DNA of 64,000 bases from Branchiostoma floridae (taxonomy: Eukaryota; Chordata; Leptocardii; Amphioxiformes; Branchiostomatidae), in NCBI RefSeq assembly GCF_000003815.2, contig NC_049993.1, positions 11,689,436 through 11,753,435 on the forward strand, read 5' to 3'. Positions 14,326 to 58,101 of this stretch are shown in pieces (the first letter of the stretch is position 1; every line of letters begins with the position of its first letter). A program made the translations under genes and the position numbers. The notes beneath the pieces are model-generated. The model did not search any database and was not told where the DNA came from. It saw only the letters and a list, made by a program, of their open reading frames with translations.

Positions 14326-15459
14326 ATGGATATGTGGACCGGTAACTGGAGCCATGTGAACGGGACGGATGGCGCGTTCGTCCCACAAGCGCTGGGGTTC
14401 GCCCCGGCCATTTTCACAACAATCATGCTCATTTCTCCAGTGGTGTACGGGACAGTAACCGTTGTGGGTCTGCTAGGGAACATGTTAGTAATCTACATGT
14501 TGCTGTGCCACACCAAGGCAAAGGACGCTACAAACTGTTACATTCTCAACCTGGCATTGGCTGATACTCTCTTCCTGCTCGGGGTACCCTTCATCTCAGC
14601 TTCATCCGCCATGGGACGCTGGGTGTTCGGGGAAGCCATGTGCAAGATTGTCTTGTCAATGGACACGTTAAACATGTTTAGTAGCGTGTTCATCCTGGTC
14701 GCGTTGAGCGTGGACCGCTACCTGGCCACAGTCCGCGCCAACACCCACCCCCATCTCCGCCAGAGGAAGATGGTGAAAACCGTTAGCCTGTCCGTGTGGG
14801 CAGCTGCCTTCATACTGACCATCCCCGTCATGGTGGTCAGCGGCACTACTCTGCTAGAAGACGGTACCTATGACTGCGCGCTCTACTGGCCTGACGGTAA
14901 GGTTGTGTCCTGGCACAAAGCGTTCACGTCTTATACCTTCATAATCGGGTTCGTCCTCCCCGTGTTGGTGATCAGCGTGTCTTACCTACTGGTGGTCCGT
15001 CATCTCAGGCGTAACACGTCCACACACGCCGCGGTGGCCAGAGTCTCCATCAAGATGCGGACAAAAGTGACTAAAACGGTTACGGCAATGATCATGACCT
15101 TCATAGTGTGCTGGTTGCCGTTCCACGTGTGTCAGCTGGTGGGTTTGACCACAGACGTGCGCCCTACGCCAGCAGTGCTGGTGCTGTTCCACATGACCTT
15201 GGCCATGACCTACGCCAACAGCTGCGTGAACCCCATCCTGTACGTCTTCATGAGTCAGAAGTTTCGCGGGAGCTTTCGCGCCGCGCTGCGTCTGAATCGG
15301 AAAACGTCTGCAGATCGGATGTACGTCCGCCAGAGCGCCACCGTCGCGCGCCATCGGCTGGAAATCCCCGCCTTTTTCGAGGAGGAAAAATGTGAGGTAA
15401 ATGTTGGAACTGTTCAGTGTTCAGCAGGAGTTATCTACTCGTTTGAAAGTGCTTTGTAG
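14326..15459 (+). CDS. Somatostatin-receptor-like class A GPCR, copy 1 (intronless)
   Basis: A 377-residue seven-transmembrane receptor, predicted to sit in the plasma membrane and couple to G proteins on binding a peptide. N-glycosylation sites are N7 and N12. TM1 carries GN at 51-52 and TM2 carries NLALAD with D80. C106 and C184 form the expected TM3-ECL2 disulfide. D113 sits in SMDTLNMF at the place of the ligand-binding aspartate (3.32) of somatostatin and opioid receptors. DRY is at 130-132, W158 in TM4, P212 in TM5, CWLP at 262-265, and NSCVNPILY at 298-306. ICL1/TM2 (KDATNCYILNLALAD) and TM3 (LSMDTLNMFSS) closely resemble vertebrate SSTRs. The C terminus ESAL fits a class I PDZ ligand. 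The ATG has a strong context (GCACCATGG). AATAAA occurs at 15469 and again at 15758-15763. It is 92% identical in protein to the gene at 18431. Galanin or MCH receptors are the nearest alternatives; the exact ligand cannot be assigned. Confidence 0.88.
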   Translation: MDMWTGNWSHVNGTDGAFVPQALGFAPAIFTTIMLISPVVYGTVTVVGLLGNMLVIYMLLCHTKAKDATNCYILNLALADTLFLLGVPFISASSAMGRWVFGEAMCKIVLSMDTLNMFSSVFILVALSVDRYLATVRANTHPHLRQRKMVKTVSLSVWAAAFILTIPVMVVSGTTLLEDGTYDCALYWPDGKVVSWHKAFTSYTFIIGFVLPVLVISVSYLLVVRHLRRNTSTHAAVARVSIKMRTKVTKTVTAMIMTFIVCWLPFHVCQLVGLTTDVRPTPAVLVLFHMTLAMTYANSCVNPILYVFMSQKFRGSFRAALRLNRKTSADRMYVRQSATVARHRLEIPAFFEEEKCEVNVGTVQCSAGVIYSFESAL

Positions 15460-18430: not shown

Positions 18431-19564
18431 ATGGATATGTGGACCGGTAACTGGAGCCATGTGAACGGGACGGATGGCGCTTTCGACCCACAAGCGCTGG
18501 AGTTCGCCCCGGCCATTGTCTCAACAATCAGGCTTATTTCTCCAGTGGTGTACGGGACAGTAACCGTTGTGGGTCTGCTAGGGAACATGTTAGTAATCTA
18601 CATGTTGCTGTGCCACACCAAGGCAAAGGACGCTACAAACTGTTACATTCTCAACCTGGCATTGGCTGATACTCTCTTCCTGCTCGGGGTACCCTTCATC
18701 TCAGCTTCATCTGCCATGGGACGCTGGGTGTTCGGGGGAGCCATGTGCAAGATCGCACTGTCGCTGGACGCCTTAAACATGTTAAGTAGCGTGTTTAGCC
18801 TGGTCTCATTGAGCATGGACCGCTACCTAGCCACAGTCCGCGCCAACACCCATCCTCATCTCCGCCAGCGAAAGGTGGTGACCGCCGTTATCCTGTCCGT
18901 CTGGGCAGCTGCCTTCATACTGACCATCCCCGTCATGGTGGTCAGCGGAACCACTCTACTGGAAGACGGCACATACGCCTGCACGCTCAACTGGCCTGAG
19001 GCTGAGGCTATATCCTGGCACAAAGCGTTCACGTCTTACACCTTCATAATCGGGTTCGTCCTCCCCGTGTTGGTGATCAGCGTGTCTTACCTACTGGTGG
19101 TCCGTCATCTCAGGCGTAACACGTCCACACACGCCGCGGTGGCCAGAGTCTCCATCAAGATGCGGACAAAAGTGACTAAAACGGTTACGGCAATGGTCAT
19201 GACCTTCATAGTGTGCTGGTTGCCGTTCCACGTGTGTCAGCTGGTGGGTTTGACCACAGACGTGCGCCCCACGCCAGCAGTGCTGGTGCTGTTCCACATG
19301 ACCTTGGCCATGACCTACGTAAACAGCTGCGTGAACCCCATCCTGTACGTCTTCATGAGTCAGAAGTTTCGAGGGAGCTTTCGCGCCGCGCTGCGTCTGA
19401 ATCGGAAAACGTCCTCTGATCGGATGTACGTCCGCCAGAGCGCCACCGTCGCGCGCCGTCGGCTGGAAATTCCCGCCTTTTTCGAGGAGGAAAAATGTGA
19501 GGTAAATGTTGGAACTGTTCAGTGTTCAGGAGGAGTTATCTATTCGTTTGAAAGTGCTTTGTAG
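18431..19564 (+). CDS. Somatostatin-receptor-like class A GPCR, copy 2 (intronless)
   Basis: Tandem paralogue of the receptor at 14326, also 377 residues and with no internal stop or frameshift. By direct comparison 30 residues differ. All class A landmarks are kept: N7/N12 glycosylation sites, D80, C106, D113, DRY 130-132, C184, CWLP 262-265, NPILY 302-306 and the C-terminal ESAL. Differences concentrate at residues 19-34 and 103-194 (TM3, ICL2/TM4 and ECL2). In ECL2, eight of the twelve residues 183-194 change, including Y187N and K192E. In TM7 YANSC becomes YVNSC. The context GCACCATGG is identical. Poly(A) signals are at 19574-19579 and 19778-19783. The clustered changes in ligand-facing regions suggest altered ligand preference, but that is inference. 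Confidence 0.88.
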   Translation: MDMWTGNWSHVNGTDGAFDPQALEFAPAIVSTIRLISPVVYGTVTVVGLLGNMLVIYMLLCHTKAKDATNCYILNLALADTLFLLGVPFISASSAMGRWVFGGAMCKIALSLDALNMLSSVFSLVSLSMDRYLATVRANTHPHLRQRKVVTAVILSVWAAAFILTIPVMVVSGTTLLEDGTYACTLNWPEAEAISWHKAFTSYTFIIGFVLPVLVISVSYLLVVRHLRRNTSTHAAVARVSIKMRTKVTKTVTAMVMTFIVCWLPFHVCQLVGLTTDVRPTPAVLVLFHMTLAMTYVNSCVNPILYVFMSQKFRGSFRAALRLNRKTSSDRMYVRQSATVARRRLEIPAFFEEEKCEVNVGTVQCSGGVIYSFESAL

Positions 19565-26910: not shown

Positions 26911-28155
26911 TCAGTCGCTTGATTTCCGTACTAAGCTCCTGATGTCCAAGTCGGAGAGGGATTCCGTCTTGGATTCCCGTCTCCGGACCCAGCGTGCCTG
27001 CTTGGCTTCCTGGATGGAGAGTTCTGGGTTGGAGGAGTGGTGCGGGTCTCCCTTCCTCAGCGCCGCTAGTCTGGGGTTGGAGAGCAGCCTGCGGTGGGAC
27101 ACGTTACCGGAGTGTAGGACGGCCTGGTTGATCATCGTCACCACCTCGTTCATCTGGCGGAGCGAGCTGATGGGAGTCCGCGGCGGCACGGGGCTCTCCC
27201 CGGACGTACTCACCACGGCCCTGTCCGTGTTCTCATGAAACTGCACCCGGAAACGCCGCTGCGTCCTCGGCGTGAGAGGGCCGATATTCTCCCGCGAGGG
27301 CGTCAGAGATCGTGGCGGCGACTTCGTCACTTTCTTAGAGTCCGACACATTTCCGTTCAAGTCCGAGTCATCTAGAGACTTTGGTCTCGGTCCTTTCGTA
27401 ACAACAAGTCTCCCTCTTCTTCTTACCACTGGGGAAGACGGTGTGTCGGGTGTGACAGGTAGGTAGTCTGAGATGATCTTAGAACTCACGGGCTTGTCGG
27501 CGTTTTCCTGCTCTATCTCCTCTGCCGTTTCTTCTTCAATAAAGTCCGGGGTCTCCGTCAGGGCCAACTTACAGACGACGGCGTCAAGATCGGCAGAACC
27601 GACGATGTTCTGCGCGTCCTCGGCTAACTCTTCGTCGGCTAGTTCCGTCAGGGCTCGCTCGAACGTGCTCGAGCCCATCGGCACCCCAGCGTTGATCGTC
27701 ACACGCTTGGACGGCTTCGGACTAGCCTGTGGAGTTGTGCCGAGCGCCGGACTCAACGAGTCAAGGCCCGGATCGGAGCCTACGACTTGTAGCGGCGGGA
27801 GAGGGTTTGACCTGCTCCGCGGAAGTCGTGGCGAGTACTCGGGAGAACTCCCGAGGGAGCCGTACGGTGTCCCGTGCCGTGGGGTGACCACTGGGGATCT
27901 CGACGGGTACGGCGACCCAGGCGTCCCCGTCCGGATGATGGGCGGCAGCAAGGGTACGGATTTCTGCATCTTCTCTTTGGACAGACTCCCCAAGAAGTCG
28001 TCTTTTTTCGGGCCCAGTCTGCCGTGGCTGGCGCTGAGCTGACGCACTTCCTCCTGGTCTCTTCTCAACATGCTGACCTGAGGTCTCTCCACATGGTTGA
28101 TGATGTAGGACTCGTCTGTACCTGTGACAGGGAGGACTTCCTTCTGAGCTGGCAT
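26911..28155 (-). CDS. Intronless disordered protein with a PP1-docking-like RVxF motif
   Basis: A 414-residue protein starting at the ATG at 28155 (A at -3) and ending TGA at 26911. The frame stays open slightly further upstream, but without an ATG. I do not recognise the family. The first 150 residues are Pro/Ser/Thr-rich with many SP/TP sites. Residues about 165-225 are acidic and possibly helical (STFERALTELADEELAED, then PDFIEEETAEEIEQE). A second SP/TP-rich basic stretch follows. RRFRVQF at about 300-306 contains RVQF, matching the consensus by which regulatory subunits bind protein phosphatase 1. A helix-prone segment (RQMNEVVTMINQAVL, about 333-347) and a basic tail ending RKSSD complete it. 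High GC and CpG against AT-rich surroundings support real coding. A TATA box lies at 28193-28200. The likely role is a phospho-regulated adaptor, possibly PP1-binding; this is inference. Confidence 0.75.
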   Translation of the reverse strand: MPAQKEVLPVTGTDESYIINHVERPQVSMLRRDQEEVRQLSASHGRLGPKKDDFLGSLSKEKMQKSVPLLPPIIRTGTPGSPYPSRSPVVTPRHGTPYGSLGSSPEYSPRLPRSRSNPLPPLQVVGSDPGLDSLSPALGTTPQASPKPSKRVTINAGVPMGSSTFERALTELADEELAEDAQNIVGSADLDAVVCKLALTETPDFIEEETAEEIEQENADKPVSSKIISDYLPVTPDTPSSPVVRRRGRLVVTKGPRPKSLDDSDLNGNVSDSKKVTKSPPRSLTPSRENIGPLTPRTQRRFRVQFHENTDRAVVSTSGESPVPPRTPISSLRQMNEVVTMINQAVLHSGNVSHRRLLSNPRLAALRKGDPHHSSNPELSIQEAKQARWVRRRESKTESLSDLDIRSLVRKSSD

Positions 28156-28192
28156 GATGCCTGGTTCTAAACACCCAGCGGCAACCAACCCA

Positions 28193-28200
28193 CTTATATA
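28193..28200 (-). promoter_or_regulatory. TATA box of the gene at 26911-28155
   Basis: On the minus strand TATATAAG starts 45 bases before the ATG. With usual spacing, transcription would start only about 10-15 bases ahead of the start codon, giving a very short leader. The surrounding 28200-28270 is GC-rich, as expected for a promoter. A full CRE palindrome TGACGTCA lies further up, near 28549-28556. Confidence 0.5.
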
Positions 28201-28279
28201 CAGGGGTAACCCGACCCGCCGCCCCGTGATATAACCCGGGCGGGGTTGTGCGTAAGCAAGCGCGGCATTTCACCCACTC

Positions 28280-34879: not shown

Positions 34880-35209
34880 TTAAACTAGCTCAGTCATCTC
34901 AATCTGATTGTTCTGAGTGCTGCCGTTCACTATAACACTGAAGTCCTCCTGAAACCGGGCAGGTCTCCCCGGTCCTTCCGTCCTACCGCCCGAACCGATC
35001 CCGCCCGAACCAATGGACGGCTCGATCGACATCCGGGCTTTTCCACACAGGATGACCCGTAAGAATCGGAAGAACAGAATCAGCAGCTCTTTCCGGAACA
35101 AGATGTAGACCCACGGGTCCAGGATCTGGTTGATGGACGCCATGTTGATCGCTAAAAGGTCTGCGGCGTGGTTAACGGCGCCCCCTGACGTGTTGTGGAT
35201 GATGCGCAC
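34880..35209 (-). CDS. Prostaglandin E receptor-like GPCR (gene A), exon 2: TM7 and C tail
   Basis: The exon starts after a good acceptor (TTTTTCATCTCCAG) at 35209 in phase 0, matching the donor at 45342. It encodes residues 291-399 of gene A and ends with TAA at 34880. It covers ECL3, TM7 with ASINQILDPWVYILFRKEL, and a 65-residue tail that is Gly/Arg-rich then acidic (ending QIEMTELV). The prostanoid-receptor signature DPW-Y is present (321-325). At residue 312 the codon AAC gives Asn where prostanoid receptors carry the TM7 Arg that pairs with the ligand carboxylate. Gene B (57490-58101) has Arg at the same place. The tail is shorter than in vertebrate EP4. Assignment to the exon at 45342 rests on strand, order, phase and homology, with a 10.1-kb intron between. 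Confidence 0.8.
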   Translation of the reverse strand: MRIIHNTSGGAVNHAADLLAINMASINQILDPWVYILFRKELLILFFRFLRVILCGKARMSIEPSIGSGGIGSGGRTEGPGRPARFQEDFSVIVNGSTQNNQIEMTELV

Positions 35210-35523
35210 CTGGAGATGAAAAATGGGAGGTTACGGAGGTGAAAGAGCAACAATTGATTGCCGTGTAACAGACAAGTGTGTGGTGCATTAGACTTGATTA
35301 AAGTCACAAAGACTTTTGAATAAGGTCGATGCTTGCATATGAGTCAGCTGATGATGACTACCCTGTGCGGTAGAGCGAAACAGGTGCACGTGGGCGAATG
35401 AAAATAGCCTGTAATAATGTTTTATGGTCACATTGAAGTCAAGTGTTGGTAATGTGTTTCATAACTGAAACTAAAATGGTAGTTGACTGGATAATGAATC
35501 ATAGAAGTCACGATCTTTGCACG

Positions 35524-35828
35524 AGCTGATTACGGTATGCAGATTTTCTAGTCTCCGGGCAGACGTGTCAGATGGATTAAAAAAAGAACAACTTGGGCAA
35601 ATAGGGACAAATAAGTTGCTTTCAGTCAGTCAGTTCAATCCTAAGCCAATTAACTCCTACTGACTTTTATTCTAGCTGATTACGGTATGCAGATTTTCTG
35701 CAGGCAGACGTGTCAGATGGATTAAAAAAAAGAAGAATTTGGCCAAATAGGGACAAATAAGTTGCTATCCATGTGTTTTCAGTCAGTCAGTTCACTCCTA
35801 GGCCCTACTAGACTTTTATTCCAGCTTG
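35524..35828. repeat. Tandem duplication, two 150-bp units
   Basis: 35524-35673 and 35674-about 35828 repeat the same order: AGCTGATTACGGTATGCAG, CAGACGTGTCAGATGGATTA, AATAGGGACAAATAAGTTGC, TCAGTCAGTCAGTTCA and CTTTTATTC. Few differences, so relatively recent. It lies in the gene A intron. Confidence 0.85.
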
Positions 35829-36949
35829 GTCAAAGTCCCCTATTAATATTCGGCCAGGCGGGAGTCTGGTAGAGACTACAGATTTGCTACAAGCTTGCTC
35901 CACTCACATCTAAATCAGTCATGAACCTGAGGGGGATACAAGCTTAGTCACGATTGGGACCGTATTATGCTTACTGCAGCGTCACCTAGCAGTGGGAAGC
36001 ATAGTGTAACTAAGTCAGTACTGCCCTGAGGAAGGTAGCGGGACTGCCGAAAGTTGGTGGAAAATCCCTTTCACTGTGCAACAAATTTAAAGAAAACAAC
36101 TTTGTTCCATTTCTGTAATGTACTGCAACCAGAGGGAGCAAATTTCAATCACAGATTGCATACCTTTCTAAGTAATCTGACGACAAGGGAACAGTAGCTT
36201 TGGTTTTGTCTGCAGTCCAAGTGTGTGCACGAGTCAGTACAGACAAAGACCCATTCATCATGGGTTACCTGCCATCACAGGTAGTACCAGACACGTCAGT
36301 AGGGAGTAGCGCACAGTCTGGATGAGCAGATCTAGCCTTACTTATGCTGTTTCATGCCATCGATCGCCCATTGGTGGTTCGCTGAGATGTACAGGGTGAC
36401 CATTAGCAATCTGACAATAGCACTAACCCCTAGACGATGTGAAAATGGTTCCCTTCAACGGTTTTAACAATCACAAGACTTTCTAAGCATAGAAAGATGC
36501 ACCTTGATAATACATGTATATATTATGTCGATATCATTTTTCAAACTCTTATCTTGATTAAGTGACCTTGAATGTACAGTGCATTGACAAGGTCGTCAGA
36601 TCCCAAAACTCTTACTTATATAGTGATAATAGCTTGAAAGGAATTCTGACATAACGCATGCATTACCTTAGATCGTATGTATGTATGTATGTCTATACTT
36701 GGAAAGTCTTGCGCATGGTGGCTATGTACCCTACCATGCAAAATGACTAGGATGAACAGTTGCACATTTATTAATTAGTACAATTATAATTACAATTATA
36801 TCCACAATTAGCCCCATAAGAGGATGTTTTCCTGTGGTCTACACGTTCATATTTACACATTGCAATTAAAACATACAGAGACATACAGTGACAGTAGAGA
36901 TCAAAAATAACATCATTAAAGGCAATATTTACAGTCCAATATCTTGCTA

Positions 36950-38245
36950 ATTGACGCCTGTGTTGTTCCACAACTGAGACATCCTGTACAGAAAGCGCCT
37001 TTTATTAGAGTTGGATTTTGGTTTTGGTAGTCTGATTTTGCAAGTAAGCAAGATTTTGCTTATTTGGTAGTCTGTTTGATACTGAGTTGTTAATCTCAGA
37101 TTAGAATGTGATTTTGTCGTACAGAAGCTTTGCTTGTTTGGTGAGCATTATTCGGACTACGAAGATATTTGGTATGTGGGTAGGGGTTGGGAAGACGAAG
37201 GTCAAGGTCAATTTTGGGCCCCCTGGTGTGTGACCTTAGTACTGCAGTGCAACTTCCGGTTTTGCTATCTCGGTGTTCTGAACATGCTATGGTCAAGATT
37301 TTTAAGTATTAGATAGCTCTTGTGCTCAGGAAAAAATGACATAAGTTTGGGCCCCCTAGCGTCTAGTTTTGGGATAGCAGGGGCATTTTTGTCAAAAACT
37401 TCTGACGAGGATAACTCAAGAAGGGAATAACAGATTTTCATGATTTTTGGTATGTAGGTACCTTANNNNNNNNNNNNNNNNNNNNNNNNNNNNNNNNNNN
37501 NNNNNNNNNNNNNNNNNNNNNNNNNNNNNNNNNNNNNNNNNNNNNNNNNNNNNNNNNNNNNNNNNNNNNNNNNNNNNNNNNNNNNNNNNNNNNNNNNNNN
37601 NNNNNNNNNNNNNNNNNNNNNNNNNNNNNNNNNNNNNNNNNNNNNNNNNNNNNNNNNNNNNNNNNNNNNNNNNNNNNNNNNNNNNNNNNNNNNNNNNNNN
37701 NNNNNNNNNNNNNNNNNNNNNNNNNNNNNNNNNNNNNNNNNNNNNNNNNNNNNNNNNNNNNNNNNNNNNNNNNNNNNNNNNNNNNNNNNNNNNNNNNNNN
37801 NNNNNNNNNNNNNNNNNNNNNNNNNNNNNNNNNNNNNNNNNNNNNNNNNNNNNNNNNNNNNNNNNNNNNNNNNNNNNNNNNNNNNNNNNNNNNNNNNNNN
37901 NNNNNNNNNNNNNNNNNNNNNNNNNNNNNNNNNNNNNNNNNNNNNNNNNNNNNNNNNNNNNNNNNNNNNNNNNNNNNNNNNNNNNNNNNNNNNNNNNNNN
38001 NNNNNNNNNNNNNNNNNNNNNNNNNNNACACCATGCATACATTGACGCCTGTGTTGTTCCACAACTGAGACATCCTGTACAGAAAGCGCCTTTTATTAGA
38101 GTTGGATTTTGGTTTTGGTAGTCTGATTTTGCAAGTAAGCAAGATTTTGCTTATTTGGTAGTCTGTTTGATACTGAGTTGTTAATCTCAGATTAGAATGT
38201 GATTTTGTCGTACAGAAGCTTTGGTTGTTTGGTGAGCATTATTCG
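36950..38245. repeat. Near-identical 205-bp direct repeats flanking a gap
   Basis: 36950-37154 and 38041-38245 match at 204 of 205 positions (G/C difference in TTTGCTTG versus TTTGGTTG). Between them are about 310 bp of sequence and the 562-N gap 37466-38027. Either a recent tandem duplication with period 1091 bp, or both ends of one locus assembled twice. Confidence 0.9.
37466..38027. other. Assembly gap of 562 N
   Basis: Run of N inside the gene A intron, between the two near-identical 205-bp repeats. Content unknown. Confidence 0.95.
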
Positions 38246-41200
38246 TCTTAAAGTGGTAAGGTTTTCCTTTGAATTGCTCCGTAAAATGTCTTCCACGACA
38301 GCTAGAAGTCCCTATTCCCATAACAATGTCGTTTGGTACCGTAACCAGTTGAACTTGAGGACCCGCCAAGAATTTGTCACCATTCCTGCAGACACTGATT
38401 AAACATTGCTGTTACAGATGAACTCCGTAATGTCAACATAGAAGTCATCCAGAGGACAATATAGGGGAAATCTCTCCTTGTGATTTTGTGTATCCCTTAG
38501 ACCCATGAATACCTAAATACACTATTCTCCATTTTTTAGTCCCAACCTAGTTTTGAAATTCGCTACACAGTTATGCACCTTTGGTGCTTTAAGCTTTGAA
38601 CTTTTAAAGTATGGGCATATATTTTTACTTACCAAACTCTGCACCATATCACGCGTATTATAATGTCTACATCATGGCATAGATAGATACATAGATATTT
38701 CTTTCAAAAACGTTCCTTAAACATCTACACGTATTTTGTATTTGCAAATTTCTATATATCCTTTCTCTTTATTTGCAGAATGTTAACGTTATAGCTGTCA
38801 TAGTGTATTGGTTGCTTAAATCAATTAATCGATTCCTAGATTAGTTGCATAGATGAATTAGGAATACTCAGTTTTGATAAGAAAACCCAACAACATTATA
38901 AAAATATCAACCTTAAAGTTATTTTCTGTGGATAAACTATCACTCCTCCCTCTTCAGTCACCTGTGATGGTACAGTCCATAGGTCACTAAGCGGGCACCA
39001 TGGTACCCTATGGGGTCTCCTATGTTGGGTAACATCGTCCAAAAATACGATATGTCGGCGGTACGTTTTAATCACAACGTCCTTTGATCTATATGTAGAC
39101 TGTACAGACGAACTATATTTGTCTACAATTTGACAAGCACCGATGAGAAGGCTACATGATTTATGAACGGGGTCACTTGATGCGTGGGAGAAAGAGTATA
39201 AGTTATGACTTGGGAGGATATAAAATCTGTAAAATTTGTTATCCAAACTTTCTGATAGTCGAAGGGATACGTTTTGTTCCGTTAGGCCGTGACCTTAACG
39301 AGGTTATAACAACAGAATGTCACGTTCTATCAGGATTCTTGCTTATCCATGCTATTCTCCACTTTATTACAGAGTTTATTATTTCTTGAACGAGTGAATC
39401 TTTCTATAATTCCTGTCAAATGTACCATATTTCATACGTGCCACCGTTTATTTAGTGTATAGGGTTATACATGGTCTACTTATACATGTCTACGCATTAT
39501 GTGAACTGTTTAGTACACCGGAACCAGCATTTGATCTAACAATTGATTTTTCTACACTGTGATTTGTCAAAGTGGCCTTGTCTGAAAGCCTAGATAACGA
39601 CCACTGAGCCCTCGAACTTTTCTAGTCTTATAGCTAACATGGGTATTGGATATGTCTAGACTTGATACGTGGTCTTATATCGAGTGTATATATAGTGAAG
39701 GAAGTGTAAAGTGTACATCAACCTAGATTTGTCGCTGAGGTTCTCTAAGTGGCTTTGGCCATTAGGTTGAGAGTTGGGTATAGATCTTCTTATGAGTATG
39801 TGTGAATCCATGCCAACAAATAAAATAAGAATGATAATTGTATTAAAAAGAGAAGCATTGCTGCCTGCGTGTAAGTGAAGCGACAGAAATATTTGAAATC
39901 ATAATTTGAAGGCATGAAAATTATAATTTCATTGCCTTCATATTTCACCTCTTGTTACTGCATTTCATAAAAAAATAGATTTTCCTGTTTAATGGTCCCG
40001 TTTATCAAACTAATATGTACGTACGCTTTGTAATAGGTCTAAACAAGCTCTCAAGTAGAATAGAATCTAACATATCATACGCATGATAGCTGGCAGTATA
40101 TATATTCTCCATATACGGGATGCTAAAATTGACCACATGTATCTACTTTTGTACTTCAAAGAATCCAGCATTTAACGTATTTGGTACCTTTTTACATGTG
40201 ATGTATGGCCCTTTGTATTTGCACAGAAGTTCCGCCCTCCCCCTAAAAAGTTGAACGTATCCAATTTGATGTGTCGTGAATATGATACAATATGCCATGA
40301 TATGTGTCTGTTATCTACTTTAAAATTCCGTCACGTTTTTACTTTCTCCTAATACTTTGTATCATGTATGTCATTCAAATCCAAACGTGATAGCCAATAC
40401 AATGTCCAAAAAAAGTCTTGACTTACACAAGACACATTCTTACCTAAAACAAAACTTTGTGACCGTCTGATCTGTAGTCTGACATTTATAGACACATCTG
40501 GGTGTTTAAAGGGCGAAAATGTCGCGTTAGTGACCCCTGTGCCCCCGGAAATTTGAACTTCATGACCCTGTCAACTCTAACGGTCTTTGTGCGTGCTTTG
40601 ATGCCCATAGCGAGGCGGGGTGGCCATCAGAAGAAGCTGTATCGTAAGTTACTAACATTAAGTCGTGTCCGGGGGCTTCACGTTCAGGTTCTGGGGTAAC
40701 CAACCGTGGTGTCCGGAACGGCCATGTTAGCACTACCGGCTAATACAGTGTCTAAACCACTAAGCTTTATAGTCTGGAAATGTCGCAGACGTTTCAATCA
40801 TATTTCTGTGTAGGTGATACTTTTGAACTATCTCATAGTCCTACCATATTGAGGGACTCAACCAGATTTGTTCTATGGTCGGCTAACTCCGCCCTAGTTG
40901 GCCGAATCTATAAAACCCGGCTTTATACAGATGCGGCGCGGATCAGTTCATATATACATATAGTGCCCACTCAAAGAAGTTCAACCCCACAATAGTGAAT
41001 GCAGTACCTTAGGCAACATAAGCAATATTAGAGCCTTAAAAGTCGAAATATTATGGATTAGGCAGTCTGTATGAAGTTGATATCTACTGCACTATATTTA
41101 CACATTTACATCATTATTTCATACTTTGAGCGGTGACCCACAAAAATTAGACTTCACGGCGTCCTAGCACCACTGCGGCATTTAATATTTGCTCATTGAA

Positions 41201-41607
41201 TGTGGAATAGAGTTGCTTCATCTTATTACGAAGAAAAGTGCCCAAAACTTGACTTTGATAATTGAAGTTCTACAACCCTGACGCGGGCTAATATTGCTTA
41301 GGTTGCCTAGTTGATTAGAAATAAGTGGTGTGTAGTCCATTGCTTTACTTTTAATTTGAGACTGTACATACAATTAGCCATAGGGAACAAGATGAATTTT
41401 TTTCCGAGTCACCAAGGGATTCTAGTTGAGTCTGGACTCAGACCATTATGAAGGGCAAGTTGGGCGTGAAATAGAAAGCGACGCAAGCTGTAAGACGTAG
41501 AAACTAAAGTAAAAATTCGTAGACGAACGGCCGGAAGCAATGCATCTGCTGGGAAATTAGAGAAAGATTGCTTCAATTCAAGAACACACAAAAACCGTTT
41601 TTATAAC

Positions 41608-41668
41608 GTTTACCGGTTTCCCATACTCCCCGCTTACGTAAGGGGGGCGCATGGGAGACTCGGTAAAC
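41608..41668. repeat. 61-bp hairpin
   Basis: Inverted arms GTTTACCGG-TTTCCCAT and ATGGGAGACTCGGTAAAC enclose a smaller CTCCCC / GGGGGG pair, so most of the sequence can fold. Likely a small MITE in the gene A intron. Confidence 0.6.
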
Positions 41669-41876
41669 TTACGACGATGGCGCCCAGGCATTTTCGTTAA
41701 ACATGGCGAAAATGATAAGCACTATTTCGACTTTTTCGCAGACAGCTTTTGTAAGATTCTTACAGTCATATGTATAATCGCGTAGGATACTATAATCCAG
41801 ACTCAACCATTGTTAACTTTAGTTAAAAGAACATGTACAGTGGCATGAAAGCTCATCTGTGTTGATGTAATCCATA

Positions 41877-42021
41877 TTGAAGATTTTCCACTGCCATGCA
41901 ACACATCAGAGTAACTGAATCATCACTCCCGAAGCGAAGAACTCAAGAAGGTCGACGGAATTGCGACTGAAAATTCGAGGTAAGCAAATTTTGGTGTTGC
42001 ATGACAGAGGAAAATCTTCAA
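41877..42021. repeat. Inverted repeat with 28-bp arms and 89-base loop
   Basis: 41877-41904 and 41994-42021 are reverse complements with two mismatches. Outer flanks also share ATGTACAG-C/TGG-like words, suggesting a longer, more diverged foldback. It lies in the gene A intron; a structured RNA is possible but unproven. Confidence 0.65.
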
Positions 42022-45000
42022 CATGTACAGCGGTGTATATAGGGCATAGATGGATATATAACAAGCTACACAAGACCTATACAATTTCTGCGTTTGTGTC
42101 AAACATCCGGCATTGACAGCAAAGCCTGATCAGTGATGTGATGAGTGACAGGAAGATGTACGACTGTCCCTCCCGTCCTGACAGCACGACAACATGCATG
42201 TGGCGCCCAGGATCTTAGACAGACATCATGCCCGTCTTAACTATCAGTACTCCGTTATTGCTTTTAGTATCTTATCTTGGGTGAGAAGTCTTCATGAATC
42301 TGTTTAAAGATCAGATAAAGCCTCTTAAACCCTGTTGGAGTAGAAAAGAAAAGAAAATGTCTCACCAAAACTTATTGCCAAGATTAGAAGATGTAGACAC
42401 GTTGCTTCGGTTTGATTTGCACGACATTAGCTTGTTCTGTATGTACGTCTTTCATGTTGTGTGCATTTTACGTTGGATGGTACAACATAACGAAATTGTT
42501 TCTGTGCATACATGTACGTACATGTACGTTGCAATGACATCCGTGTCTTCAGTATTTACACCAATGCCAAATCGTGAACTACACACAACCCAGTACCGGC
42601 AAGTGTCAATAGACATCGTTTATTGATTATCTAATCCCTTTTCTTTCTGCTTTATCTTCCTTGTTTAGTAACATTAGCTATGGAGGTTTTAAACGGCTAA
42701 TAATCTCATACATCGACTTTTTCAGCGCTCTTTATTTCCAAATGTAAAGGTTCAAATTAGCTTACAGCACATTTCAAATGTGAACAAATGGCGATAATAT
42801 CTTGTGAGGACATTTAGAATAACATGTGTGAGTTTGTAGCACAGTTCTGTTTACCAACCCCAGCTACATTGTAACAAGGTCTCCAACTTCCGTTCACACC
42901 AAGTATTGACTCGCCCTATTTACCGAATCTGTGTGTACGAATCTGTTACACATGTTACTCTGTTTGTTCCCAGACAACACGGTCAATGACTCGGTATGTT
43001 GACGCCGGAGAATTGGGTTCACTTTAGTCCATTCCAGATAAGCCCTCCCCTAGTTGACATTTCTCCCTTCTCCTTTAAGTAGACCAAAAATAATCTATAA
43101 AAATAACGTACGCGGTGGTAAGATATAAACTCAGTTGTCATAAAATATATCTTGGGGTAGCACCTAACGTTACACCACGTTAAAGGGAAACTCAACAACG
43201 CCAAAATGTTTATTTTGAAACTGACTATTTTTTTTAAATCAAATCAGCAAAATTTTGTAAAACGAGCCATGTATACTCTAGTAAATGAATAGTTCTCTAC
43301 TGCCTCCTATGTTATATGCATGGTTGAAATGATACCTACCATTCAAAACAGTATCTACGGACCCAGAACACTTTCCTCTACCATTGAGCCCTCCTTTAAC
43401 CCTTGATGTATGATTTTCAGTGTTAGTATTTTGAAATACAACCCGTGGACTGTGAAATCTTAACCCAATGTTTTTTTTTACATGCTTACATAGCCTCCAA
43501 GCCGCCCGTAAATCCTGGATTCATATTACGATAGTTGTTTGGGCCATATGGCCAGAGGCTCCGATTGATCGACCTTGCTCTGTATCATATACTAGTAATT
43601 TACGCCCTGGTTATCTCTTACTGTTGTGTCGTTTAGACACTGATAGTACATCGTAAAGGTTTACAATATTAAAAGTGAATGTTTACAGTCTCGCTGGGAC
43701 AAATATGAACAACGTTAACCTCCAAACATCGAGAGAGAGGCTAGGATATGGGCGTATCGTACATTCTTCTGTACGCTCGCATATAGTTTACCTTAGTGAT
43801 ATTGAATTAGGCTGACAAAATAATCAAAGAAAACTTAAAATACAGAATTAAATATAACCAAAAGGAAGTTTTTAAGCGATCATTCAATTTGTCTTGAGCT
43901 CTTAACTTCTTTTGTATATCAAATAGCTTCAATCTTTTTACTTGGACCTCCGAAAGGTAGTTTTCGTTCAGGTGCGATTTTTGTACAAAGTATTGTATGT
44001 TCCACAGCCATGTGTGTGTGTGTTTACATTGTAAATTATATGTGCTAACTGTTAGACCGAGTTATACACTCATATGAGCGACCATACTGAAGTCTATGTA
44101 TTTTGTCGTGTCAATAACGCAATCCATATATCACTTGCAATCGATATTCAGAGAGAAAAACGAGACCTTGCAATCGACAACCACACCACTCCAACAGGAT
44201 GCGTTTTTCCACACGGCTGTGTATGATGTATATATCCGCTCAATTGGAGTGGCGTGGGTAAAATGAGATTAGCCACTTCTGCTGCGTTAGATAGAGGTAA
44301 TGGATAGGAATGGTCGGATGGACGGAATGTGACAGAGACATATAGAAGAAGTAAACAGGGAAGATAGGAAAGAGAATGGAAGATAGAGTGGTGTATAGAA
44401 AGACAGAGGGCAGAAAATACTTTATGAACGGGGCATGAAAGAAGACGTTGGGGCTCGTCCAGAACCAATAACCTTTCGGATAGAGTTGTGGAAGAGAAGA
44501 ATATAGAAATATGAAAATAGGCCTTACAATGTAGGAGCAGACTGATGAAGTATAAAGAGTGGGGTCTGCTTTCAAATGCTACAACATTGAAGATTTGAAG
44601 TACTGTCGCAGATTAAACAATGAGAATGATAAAATGGCTTTAAAAACAACTTCCCTATTCAGCATCGATCTATATCAGATCAATAATACTTTGTCCTCAT
44701 TTGAATGACCACGGTCTAGGTGTGCAGCGTGGTGCTTACAAAGTTAAAAGGTCTAAGGTCTTCTAAGATCTTCTTCTGAAGATTCTTGTCAAACACATGG
44801 GATGTGGGGTTACGAAAGTTGTAAGTGGTAGAAGAGAGCAAGAGTCAGAAGTTATTAATACCGTTACTGTAGTATGATATTGCATATTTTACTATCGACA
44901 AACTTTGCATGAGGGCATCCCGACCACAGTGGCCATTTAGATTGACCATAGCGTGATCAGTTTCCTCTCTCTAGTGACCACCTGTCTATGGTGACCACTG

Positions 45001-45341
45001 TTTTTAAGTCTATTGAAGGACGTATGAGCTCAATACCCACGTTTGACTATATGTAAATGTATCTAGTCTCTACTAGACTTTTGTGACTGCTGGGTTGCCT
45101 ATGTGCAGCTCTAAATGCTAGCCTAACTCTTTACATGACCATTTAATACTACTTTTCGATCAACCCAAAACGTTGCTAGATACTAGACTATAATGATACT
45201 TTATTGCAAATCCATGCCCGAGGGTAACATGAAAGGAGATAAACAAATAGTGTAGAACAGTATAGAATATGTCTACTTTAGTCTAAAAGCTATCTCTAAA
45301 CTGTAACTTTGGGTATAGCTACCCATGTGTGCTGTACGTAC

Positions 45342-46211
45342 CATGATAGGTCCCCAGCAGATAGTGAAGACCACGGTCACCCCCACCAGCAGGACCACCA
45401 TCTGGATCTCTATCTCCTTCTCCTTCCGCAGCCGTCTCATCTCCCGACACGTCTGCATCTCCAGGGACCGTCTCCGCATCTTGAACATGGTGAAGATCAG
45501 CGACACGTTCAGGACAGTCGTCCCCAGGATGATGAGGATACCCGTGGCGGCGAAGGCGTAGGGGTACACCGCCTCGGTTAACGTCAGGTCCCCGGCGGTG
45601 CTGAAGAAGCACCACGTGCCCGGGTACTGGATCTCGTACCTCCCCACCCCGACAAACGGTAGGAGAGAGAACAGGATGGTGTATACCCACACACAGGCGA
45701 TGGCGATACGAGCTTTCTTACGGTCTATGTGGATGTTGTAGAAGTAAGGATGGCTCAGTGCAATGTACCGCTCAACAGCCATGACCGCTACGATAAGATT
45801 GGTGCTCAGTCCGAAAGCGACCATGTTAAAAGCGTGAAACTTACAGAGAGGTTCTCCGCCGACCCATTTGAAGTTATTGGCGTAGACTATAAGAGCGAAG
45901 GGTGAGACGACTAGCGTGCCGATGAGATCGGTCCATGCGAGGCCGGACACTAGCGTGTAGAACACTGAGCGGCGTCTCTCTCTGCGGGACAGACACAGGA
46001 CCACCAGGGCGATAACGTTACTGAGTACACCCGTCATGAACATCAGGGCAGTCTTTAGCAGGGCTGGGGACGGGTCTCGCGGCGTGATACCGTCTTCTGA
46101 GCTCGTCACGTTCAGGAGAATCTCTTCGGTGGGGGTAAGGAATCCCACCGACGTGTTCTCTACGTACGCCGCCGTCACAAAGTCTTCCTCGAAGGTCCCG
46201 GCGTCTGCCAT
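45342..46211 (-). CDS. Prostaglandin E receptor-like GPCR (gene A), exon 1: N terminus to TM6
   Basis: Encodes residues 1-290, from the ATG at 46211 (context AACAATGGC) to a donor (ATG|GTACGT) in phase 0. With the exon at 34880-35209 the protein has 399 residues. Glycosylation sites are N19 and N34. TM1 is about 48-74. C123 in TM3 pairs with C201 in ECL2. ERY at 147-149 replaces the ERC usual in prostanoid receptors and is followed by IALSHPYFY. The ECL2 block QYPGTWCF (195-202) is the hallmark of EP receptors. TM6 ends CWGPIM at the exon boundary, the same place where vertebrate prostanoid receptor genes are interrupted. The family senses prostaglandin E2 and usually signals through Gs or Gi; EP4 is the closest type by overall pattern. 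Whether this one binds PGE2 is doubtful because of the TM7 Asn in exon 2. Confidence 0.88.
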
Positions 46212-53402: not shown

Positions 53403-54290
53403 ATGAGTATATCCTTGGTGCTGAACAGCATTCACACTATGAAACACTTTTGTCTTTGTTTTCTTTATTGCAACATGGAGGTAATACAGTACACATTGGT
53501 GCCGTACTCATTTGTATTAGTACTGAACAGCATACGCATTATTACTGAACAGCATACGCATACAGCATTCACTCTATGGAACAGTTTTGTCCTTGGTGCT
53601 GAACAGTATTCACTCTGTGAAACAATTTTGCCTTTGTTGTTGGACAGCATTCACACTATGAAAAAGACCTGTCCTTGGTGCTGGTATTCACACCATAATA
53701 CAGCTTTGCCCTTAGCACTGAACAGCATTCACCCTATGAACCTGTTTTGTCTTTGGAGCTAAACCGCATTCACACTATGGAAGAGACTTGTCCTTGGTGC
53801 TGAACGGTATTCACACCATGATACAGCTTTGCCCTAAGTACTGAACAGCATTCACACTATGAAAGATGCTTGTCCTTTGTGCTGATCGGCATTCACACTA
53901 TGAACCAGTTTTGTCTTGGGAGCTGAACAGCATTCACACAGACAGCTTTGCCATTGGTATTGAACAGCATTCACACTAGGAACCAATTTTGCCCTTAGTT
54001 GCTGAACAGCATTCGCACTATGAACATTTTTGTCTTGGGAGCTGAACAGCATTCACACAGACAGCTTTGCCATTGGTACTGAAAAACATTCACACTATGA
54101 ACCAGTTTTGTCCTTAGTTGCTGAACAGCATTCGCACTATGAACAGTTTTGTCCTTGGTGCTGAACAGCATCCACGGCATGAAATAGTTTTGTCCTTGGT
54201 GCTGAACAGCATTCGCACTATGAACAGTTTTGCCCTTGGTGCTGAACAGCATCCACGGCATAAAACAGTTTTGGTATTGGTACTAAAAAA
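53403..54290. repeat. Minisatellite of about twenty 40-bp units
   Basis: Repeats of roughly CTGAACAGCATTCACACTAT followed by GAACAGTTTTGTCCTTGGTG, with variants (CCACGGCATGAAA, CAGACAGCTTTGCC). Near 54120-54280 an 81-bp pair of variant units is itself repeated. Overlapping open frames on both strands arise because the period rarely creates stops; they show no other coding sign. Confidence 0.9.
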
Positions 54291-57489: not shown

Positions 57490-58101
57490 TCACTTTTCCA
57501 TGGTTCCCGAAGCTCTTCTCTTCAGTGTATTCGGGCTGAGGTTACTGACCGCTCCGTCTGACATAGTTCTCGTCTGCCTCTTTGACAAAGGGCTAGCTTC
57601 TGGAGTTATAGTCTCAAATTTTGTGGTAGGTTCCTCAAACACAACGTCCTCTAAGGAACTATAGATGCACCGGTCGTCATTCGGAGAAAGGGCCGGTAAA
57701 CAGTCTCGCCACGAGGGCCGGCGTTTGCTAAACGAAGACCTCCCGGATGGTCTTCTCTCGCCATTCATGTTGTTCTCGTGAGAGTTCAGATTGTCTGTCT
57801 CGTCGATCGCGTGATGAAAGATGGCGTCGGCCACCGCCAGTCTGCTCGCTCGGCCAGCGTGTCCGTTAGAAAACGTCACCATGCCCGCCTCTCGCTTGTT
57901 GTCGCTGGGTTGTTTCGGAACTTGTCTTATCTTGCAGGTCAGGTCCTTCACAATTTTGATGACGCGGTGGAAGAGTTCTCGGCGGAAGAGGATGTAGATC
58001 CAAGGGTCGAGGATCTGGTTCATGGACGCCATTCGAACGGAAACGAGATCCCACTGGATCTCACTCTCGTAGCTCGGGATCTGGTTCAGCAAGACCCGGA
58101 T
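57490..58101 (-). CDS. Prostaglandin E receptor-like GPCR (gene B), last main exon: TM7 and long C tail
   Basis: The exon follows a T-rich acceptor (T13-AG) at 58101 in the same phase and homologous position as gene A exon 2, and ends TGA at 57490, giving 203 residues. It begins IRVLLNQ, reaches TM7 with SVRMASMNQILDPWIYILFR, then has a tail of about 160 residues. R23 of the exon is the conserved prostanoid-carboxylate-binding arginine, so this receptor looks functional for a prostanoid. The long Ser-rich tail resembles EP4 and carries PKA-type sites RRPS (twice) and KRRAS near the end. Exon 1 (N terminus to TM6) is not in the window; it must lie beyond 64000. The gene lies on the same strand as gene A, consistent with tandem duplication. 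Confidence 0.85.
   Translation of the reverse strand: MRVLLNQIPSYESEIQWDLVSVRMASMNQILDPWIYILFRRELFHRVIKIVKDLTCKIRQVPKQPSDNKREAGMVTFSNGHAGRASRLAVADAIFHHAIDETDNLNSHENNMNGERRPSGRSSFSKRRPSWRDCLPALSPNDDRCIYSSLEDVVFEEPTTKFETITPEASPLSKRQTRTMSDGAVSNLSPNTLKRRASGTMEK

Follow-up and report, generated by a model that had tools for sequence, protein, structure and literature searches.

A lancelet prostanoid receptor gene with asparagine in place of the TM7 carboxylate-binding arginine

Prostaglandin receptors classically anchor the carboxylate of their ligand with Arg 7.40, in the seventh transmembrane helix (TM7). We report a prostanoid receptor gene of the lancelet Branchiostoma floridae (gene A) that has asparagine at this position. 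The gene lies on the minus strand of the 64,000-nucleotide stretch of DNA that was analysed (the window, C15:11689436-11753435), where the codon AAC of Asn312 occupies positions 35144-35146 (minus strand). Judged from its sequence, gene A is a family member by descent and is outside the class that binds acids through Arg 7.40. Our preferred reading, which we hold tentatively and at somewhat less than even odds, is that gene A codes for a working prostanoid receptor with a rebuilt grip on the carboxylate, and that acid prostanoids still bind to it.

Results

Gene A is an open two-exon prostanoid receptor gene

The spliced protein of gene A has 399 aa. Exon 1 (45342-46211, minus strand) encodes 290 aa from the N-terminus to the end of TM6, and exon 2 (34880-35209, minus strand) encodes the 109 aa of ECL3, TM7, helix 8 and the C-tail, up to the stop. 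Between them lies a phase-0 intron of 10.1 kb (35210-45341, minus strand) at the same position as in gene B and in the paralogues whose junctions were read. Both splice sites are in phase 0: exon 1 ends in ATG followed by the GT donor GTACGT, and exon 2 starts at 35209 with GTGCGC after CTCCAG, the acceptor AG being preceded by a pyrimidine tract. Human prostanoid receptor genes have an intron after TM6, and gene A has this feature of the family.

Comparison with solved structures in the PDB places exon 1 closest to EP4 (9e-52), then to IP, EP3, DP1, TP, EP2, EP1 and FP. For the TM7 part of exon 2, the top solved relatives are 22 prostanoid receptor chains, and the next is the oxytocin receptor at E 0.06. 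In the tree, gene A is likewise placed with the known prostanoid receptors. The lid motif of prostanoid receptors in ECL2 (around T/S-W-C-F) is present as QYPGTWCF, intact as an earlier note on this DNA had described it.

Searches of the window with tblastn and with a TM7 profile built from 14 sequences revealed no second TM7 exon for gene A outside a run of 562 Ns (37466-38027), which lies within the gene A intron and could conceal an exon. The profile matched two prostanoid TM7 exons at E <1e-20, those of genes A and B, and everything else in the window scored at E >=0.19; the N run is the only blind stretch of the intron, with no profile match elsewhere in it. In the 513-Mb genome assembly (431 contigs), exon 1 of gene A has one match of full identity and a next best of 50%, with no second near-identical copy among the matches listed.

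The window holds other features besides these receptors. Two tandem single-frame rhodopsin-type receptor genes (14326-15459 and 18431-19564, plus strand; Pfam 7tm_1) encode 377 aa each, are 92% identical and are presumably somatostatin/galanin-like, as we judge from their appearance. A long open frame (26911-28269, minus strand; 452 codons) encodes a Pro-, Ser- and Arg-rich sequence and has no Pfam match at E 0.001, and a minisatellite at 53562-54273 consists of about 18 copies of a 41-base unit (alternatively, of 119-base units).

The simplest history has an ancestral arginine at 7.40 that gene A lost

Residue 312 of the spliced gene A is Asn, in the context DLLAINMASINQILDPW, and its alignment column is unambiguous. 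The reading of AAC in the earlier note was confirmed on the minus strand, as was its description of the arginine as nearly invariant: Arg 7.40 is found in all eight human prostanoid receptors and in six of the eight lancelet TM7 exons found. In the alignment of seven lancelet and seven human sequences it is present in 12 of 14, and in 14 of 16 once EP3 and the C1 gene are added (EP3 was read apart, the C1 gene and the third C9 gene were found later and are absent from the alignment, and the middle of C9b is missing from it). The exceptions are gene A (Asn, AAC) and the paralogue C8c (Cys, TGT). Since all six Arg codons differ from AAC by two or three bases, Asn312 is not a one-base error.

In the tree, a branch with support of 100/100 divides gene A, gene B and the human receptors from the C8/C9 clade, without resolving the order among gene A, gene B and the human group. 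Because Arg 7.40 occurs on both sides of this deepest split, Arg is most simply ancestral and Asn derived, and the arginine would most simply have been lost independently in gene A and in C8c.

The remainder of the gene A pocket is largely kept

Gene B and seven human receptors all carry the same residue at 28 columns, and gene A departs at just 2 of these (L242M and R312N), so that R312N is an isolated change. Under the same test, the other eight sequences show 0 to 4 departures each, at 26 to 30 columns, and gene A is thus as well kept as working human receptors. With this count, an open frame and sound splice sites, gene A does not look like a gene in decay, in keeping with what the earlier note had assumed. 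Single 'invariant' positions are also broken in human receptors, as in TP, with His for Tyr 2.65, and in DP1, with Cys at the column of gene A residue 148 (the Arg of ERY), which shows that family members can lose such a position and still work.

Gene A shares the ECL2 motif PGTWC, Tyr 2.65 and the TM7 motif DPW with human EP1-EP4, FP, TP, IP and DP1, and differs from them in having Asn at 7.40, Lys at 1.38 and Met for Leu at 242. Tyr 2.65, the Thr and Trp of ECL2, Met 3.32, Trp 6.48, Ser 7.43 and Gln 7.46 are all kept in the pocket, which is not wholly conserved, 2.61 being Ala in gene A versus Thr in EP4. The signalling motifs ERY and DPW and Trp 6.48 are intact, and the decoy role suggested by the earlier note finds no support in the sequence.

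In the parts of PMC10169810 that we consulted, the ligand carboxylate in FP is salt-bridged to R291 and hydrogen-bonded to T184 (ECL2) and Y92 (2.65), and receptors mutated at these residues are less active; the same FP contacts appear in the consulted parts of PMC10709307. By these assignments, two carboxylate contacts are kept in gene A, namely Tyr110 (2.65; 45882-45884, minus strand), which fits the family pattern of Tyr (His in TP) at this position, and Thr199 in the PGTWC motif of ECL2 (45615-45617, minus strand). Consulted sections of PMC13039517 report that the TP mutant R295F loses potency about 200-fold, that Arg 7.40 of TP contacts the TM1 backbone at the helix's outer end and closes the gap between TM1 and TM7, with similar TM1 contacts in EP2, EP3 and EP4, and that the His at 2.65 of TP is charged in simulation, a precedent for changed anchors. 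Ile 1.38 of EP2 is one of the residues lining the entrance to the pocket, the region in which an antagonist ring stacks on Arg 7.40 (PMC12669672, in the part consulted). Outside human receptors, the portions consulted of PMC8835781 (shrimp), PMC8415482 (mosquito) and PMC7509579 (EP/IP review) contain no residue-level data on Arg 7.40.

Lys53 is a candidate replacement charge in TM1

Three columns of the alignment have a Lys or Arg in gene A and no basic residue in any other row (gaps in rows being allowed): 53 in TM1, and 347 and 366 in the C-tail. Lys53 (AAG, 46053-46055, minus strand) is therefore the sole private Lys/Arg of the 7TM core, and counting the register from Asn65 (1.50) puts it at 1.38. 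At column 53, four human rows (FP, TP, EP1 and DP1) have no letter, the start of TM1 being missing from them; three of these, FP, TP and EP1, were read by hand. Residue 1.38 is Ile in EP2 and EP4, Phe in FP, TP and EP3, Leu in EP1 and Thr in IP, and it is Ser or Thr in the other six aligned lancelet proteins. Gene A has one or two extra residues at the start of TM1 near Lys53, which we take as a mark of private change and which also make the 1.38 register less sure. Given that Ile 1.38 of EP2 lines the entrance region near Arg 7.40, Lys53 probably adjoins 7.40, so that the charge that was lost and the one that was gained probably sit side by side.

Gene B and a further group of lancelet paralogues

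The earlier note had contrasted gene A with a gene B in the same cluster that retains Arg at 58033-58035 (minus strand). This codon is indeed an Arg codon, CGA, but the window contains only exon 2 of gene B (57490-58101, minus strand); exon 1 (C15:11754498-11755271) is located outside it, about 1 kb beyond its end. Gene B is 50% identical to gene A over gene A residues 49-290 and has its intron and strand in common with it, whereas it keeps Arg 7.40, has Ser at 1.38 and Lys at 2.54 (as in DP1), and possesses a longer C-tail. Its TM7 exon encodes 203 aa, compared with 109 aa in gene A and 74-75 aa in the paralogues.

The genome search with exon 1 returned 94 matches at E <= 0.001, of which 28 were read (eight loci and 20 more); 2 of the 20 additional matches have a prostanoid-like ECL2. 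Seven further prostanoid-like genes were found, three on C8, three on C9 and one on C1 (L003, L004, L007, L005/L012, L006/L014, L013/L016 and L036/L038). A locus on C2 (24% identity) was dropped from this group, its ECL2 not being prostanoid-like. Counted from the 28 of 94 matches read, the genome has at least nine such genes, including A and B, and at least eight TM7 exons. For C8a, the top eight solved relatives are all chains of prostanoid receptors (EP2, IP, EP4 and DP1), with a neuromedin receptor in ninth place.

Like gene A, the C8/C9/C1 genes have a phase-0 intron after TM6 where this was read (C8a, C8b, C8c and C9a, as well as gene B), and Arg 7.40 is present in five of their six TM7 exons found, including that of the C1 gene (DFLAARLMSFN). 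They differ in having NP for DP in TM7 and SYCMF, TWCMF, SWCMF or TFCMF in ECL2; in addition, the three C8 genes have a His aligned at 2.65. In C9b, the C1 gene and the third C9 gene, the part ahead of TM7 is interrupted further, and a two-exon structure therefore does not hold strictly for the group. These seven genes may form a sister group of the prostanoid receptors.

The third C9 gene (C9:13391238-13392753, exon 13391238-13392098, minus strand) has its extra break in TM2. No TM7 exon of its own was found in the stretches read nearby, and a run of 615 Ns lies between it and C9:13377.5 kb; its last exon may be shared or may have been lost. Because the TM7 exon at C9:13377.5 kb could belong to the third C9 gene, the assignment of that exon to C9a is uncertain.

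C8c (L007; C8:10000731-10004420, TM7 exon at about 841-665 of the locus, minus) is the second gene without Arg 7.40, its Cys codon TGT being one change from CGT. It departs at 8 of the 80 columns that are identical in four relatives, including an Ala-to-Glu change in TM3, compared with 3/75 and 5/77 for its closest sisters and 41/113 and 26/98 for the more distant C9a and C9b. These counts favour relaxation of C8c; the loss of Arg 7.40 can thus go with relaxation, a caution for gene A.

Discussion

The loss of Arg 7.40 in gene A, as pointed out in the earlier note, is real, derived and isolated, whereas it does not by itself establish the non-carboxylate ligand or decoy role that the note considered plausible. 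Three points that it had not considered are the retention of Tyr 2.65, the restriction of Lys53 to gene A and the ability of an amide at 7.40 to hydrogen-bond. With Tyr 2.65 kept, an amide of this kind at 7.40 and Lys53 probably near, an acid ligand is plausible, and we favour rebuilt acid recognition over a non-acid ligand. We propose that a prostanoid would enter the gene A pocket with its acid end at the corner formed by TM1, TM2, TM7 and ECL2, where the acid would be held by Tyr110, Thr199 and the amide of Asn312, and where Lys53, in the first turns of TM1, would perhaps supply the charge lost from TM7. Acid prostanoids would then be recognised at a changed affinity, and esters or amides would be better tolerated. 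The G-protein preference of gene A may also have changed; in EP3D, replacement of the TM7 Arg by Gln reportedly kept Gi coupling and lost Gs coupling.

Several observations speak against a rebuilt grip. Lys53 may face lipid or solvent, its register being counted across a helix start with extra residues, and a single private Lys may be due to chance, basic residues being common at helix ends. Altering Arg 7.40 in human receptors costs much potency, and C8c, the other lancelet gene without this arginine, appears relaxed. On the present sequences we are doubtful about the possibility that the gripping charge now sits in TM1 (Lys 1.38) instead of TM7 (Arg 7.40 replaced by Asn), or that it was abandoned and neutral esters or amides of prostaglandins are bound instead.

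A changed ligand, the reading that the earlier note preferred, would explain why the permanent cation is gone from 7.40 and the remaining pocket is kept: Asn312 would hydrogen-bond the neutral head group of a glyceryl ester, ethanolamide or lactone of a prostanoid, or of another lipid. We regard this as unlikely, at roughly one chance in four, for the acid contacts of Tyr 2.65 and the ECL2 Thr are retained as well and a private Lys is close by register. Less probable still is a ligand-poor or constitutive receptor with high basal activity or a role in heteromers, for which acid recognition would be dispensable. The lowered agonist potency of human receptors altered at Arg 7.40 and the G-protein-side motifs ERY and DPW kept in gene A fit such a receptor, but a pocket well conserved apart from 7.40 is unexpected without a bound ligand.

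Early decay, with gene A a duplicate losing function and Asn312 among the first hits, has a parallel in the relaxed C8c; we judge it improbable, as gene A has an open frame and sound splice sites, its 2/28 departures are within the range of its relatives and AAC requires at least two substitutions from Arg. Finally, an error of the gene model or assembly is the least probable of these explanations: the 562-base gap could accommodate a TM7 exon of 109 aa or 74-75 aa (not one of gene B's 203 aa) with the true Arg, or Asn could be a sequencing artefact, but both the phase and the junction of the exon at 35209 are right, the family TM7 profile matches no other exon for gene A in the window, no single base change turns AAC into an Arg codon and no second near-identical copy of exon 1 is listed in the genome.

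In the literature searched, we found no paper on a lancelet prostanoid receptor without Arg 7.40; a survey of amphioxus GPCRs (PMC2246102), in the part consulted, names the prostaglandin group only in a figure legend. What is new here is that the only private Lys/Arg in the 7TM core of gene A, Lys53 (1.38) in TM1, probably lies beside the position at which the family's arginine was lost. A natural receptor that is without Arg 7.40 and has a largely intact pocket could reveal which contacts are replaceable. Dedicated receptors for neutral prostaglandin derivatives are still debated, and gene A is a candidate for such a receptor. Gene A suggests that variation of the pocket was under way in an invertebrate relative of vertebrates, and, if the reading is true, nature would with the moved or surrendered charge have run a swap experiment on a contact that ranks among the most conserved in the family.
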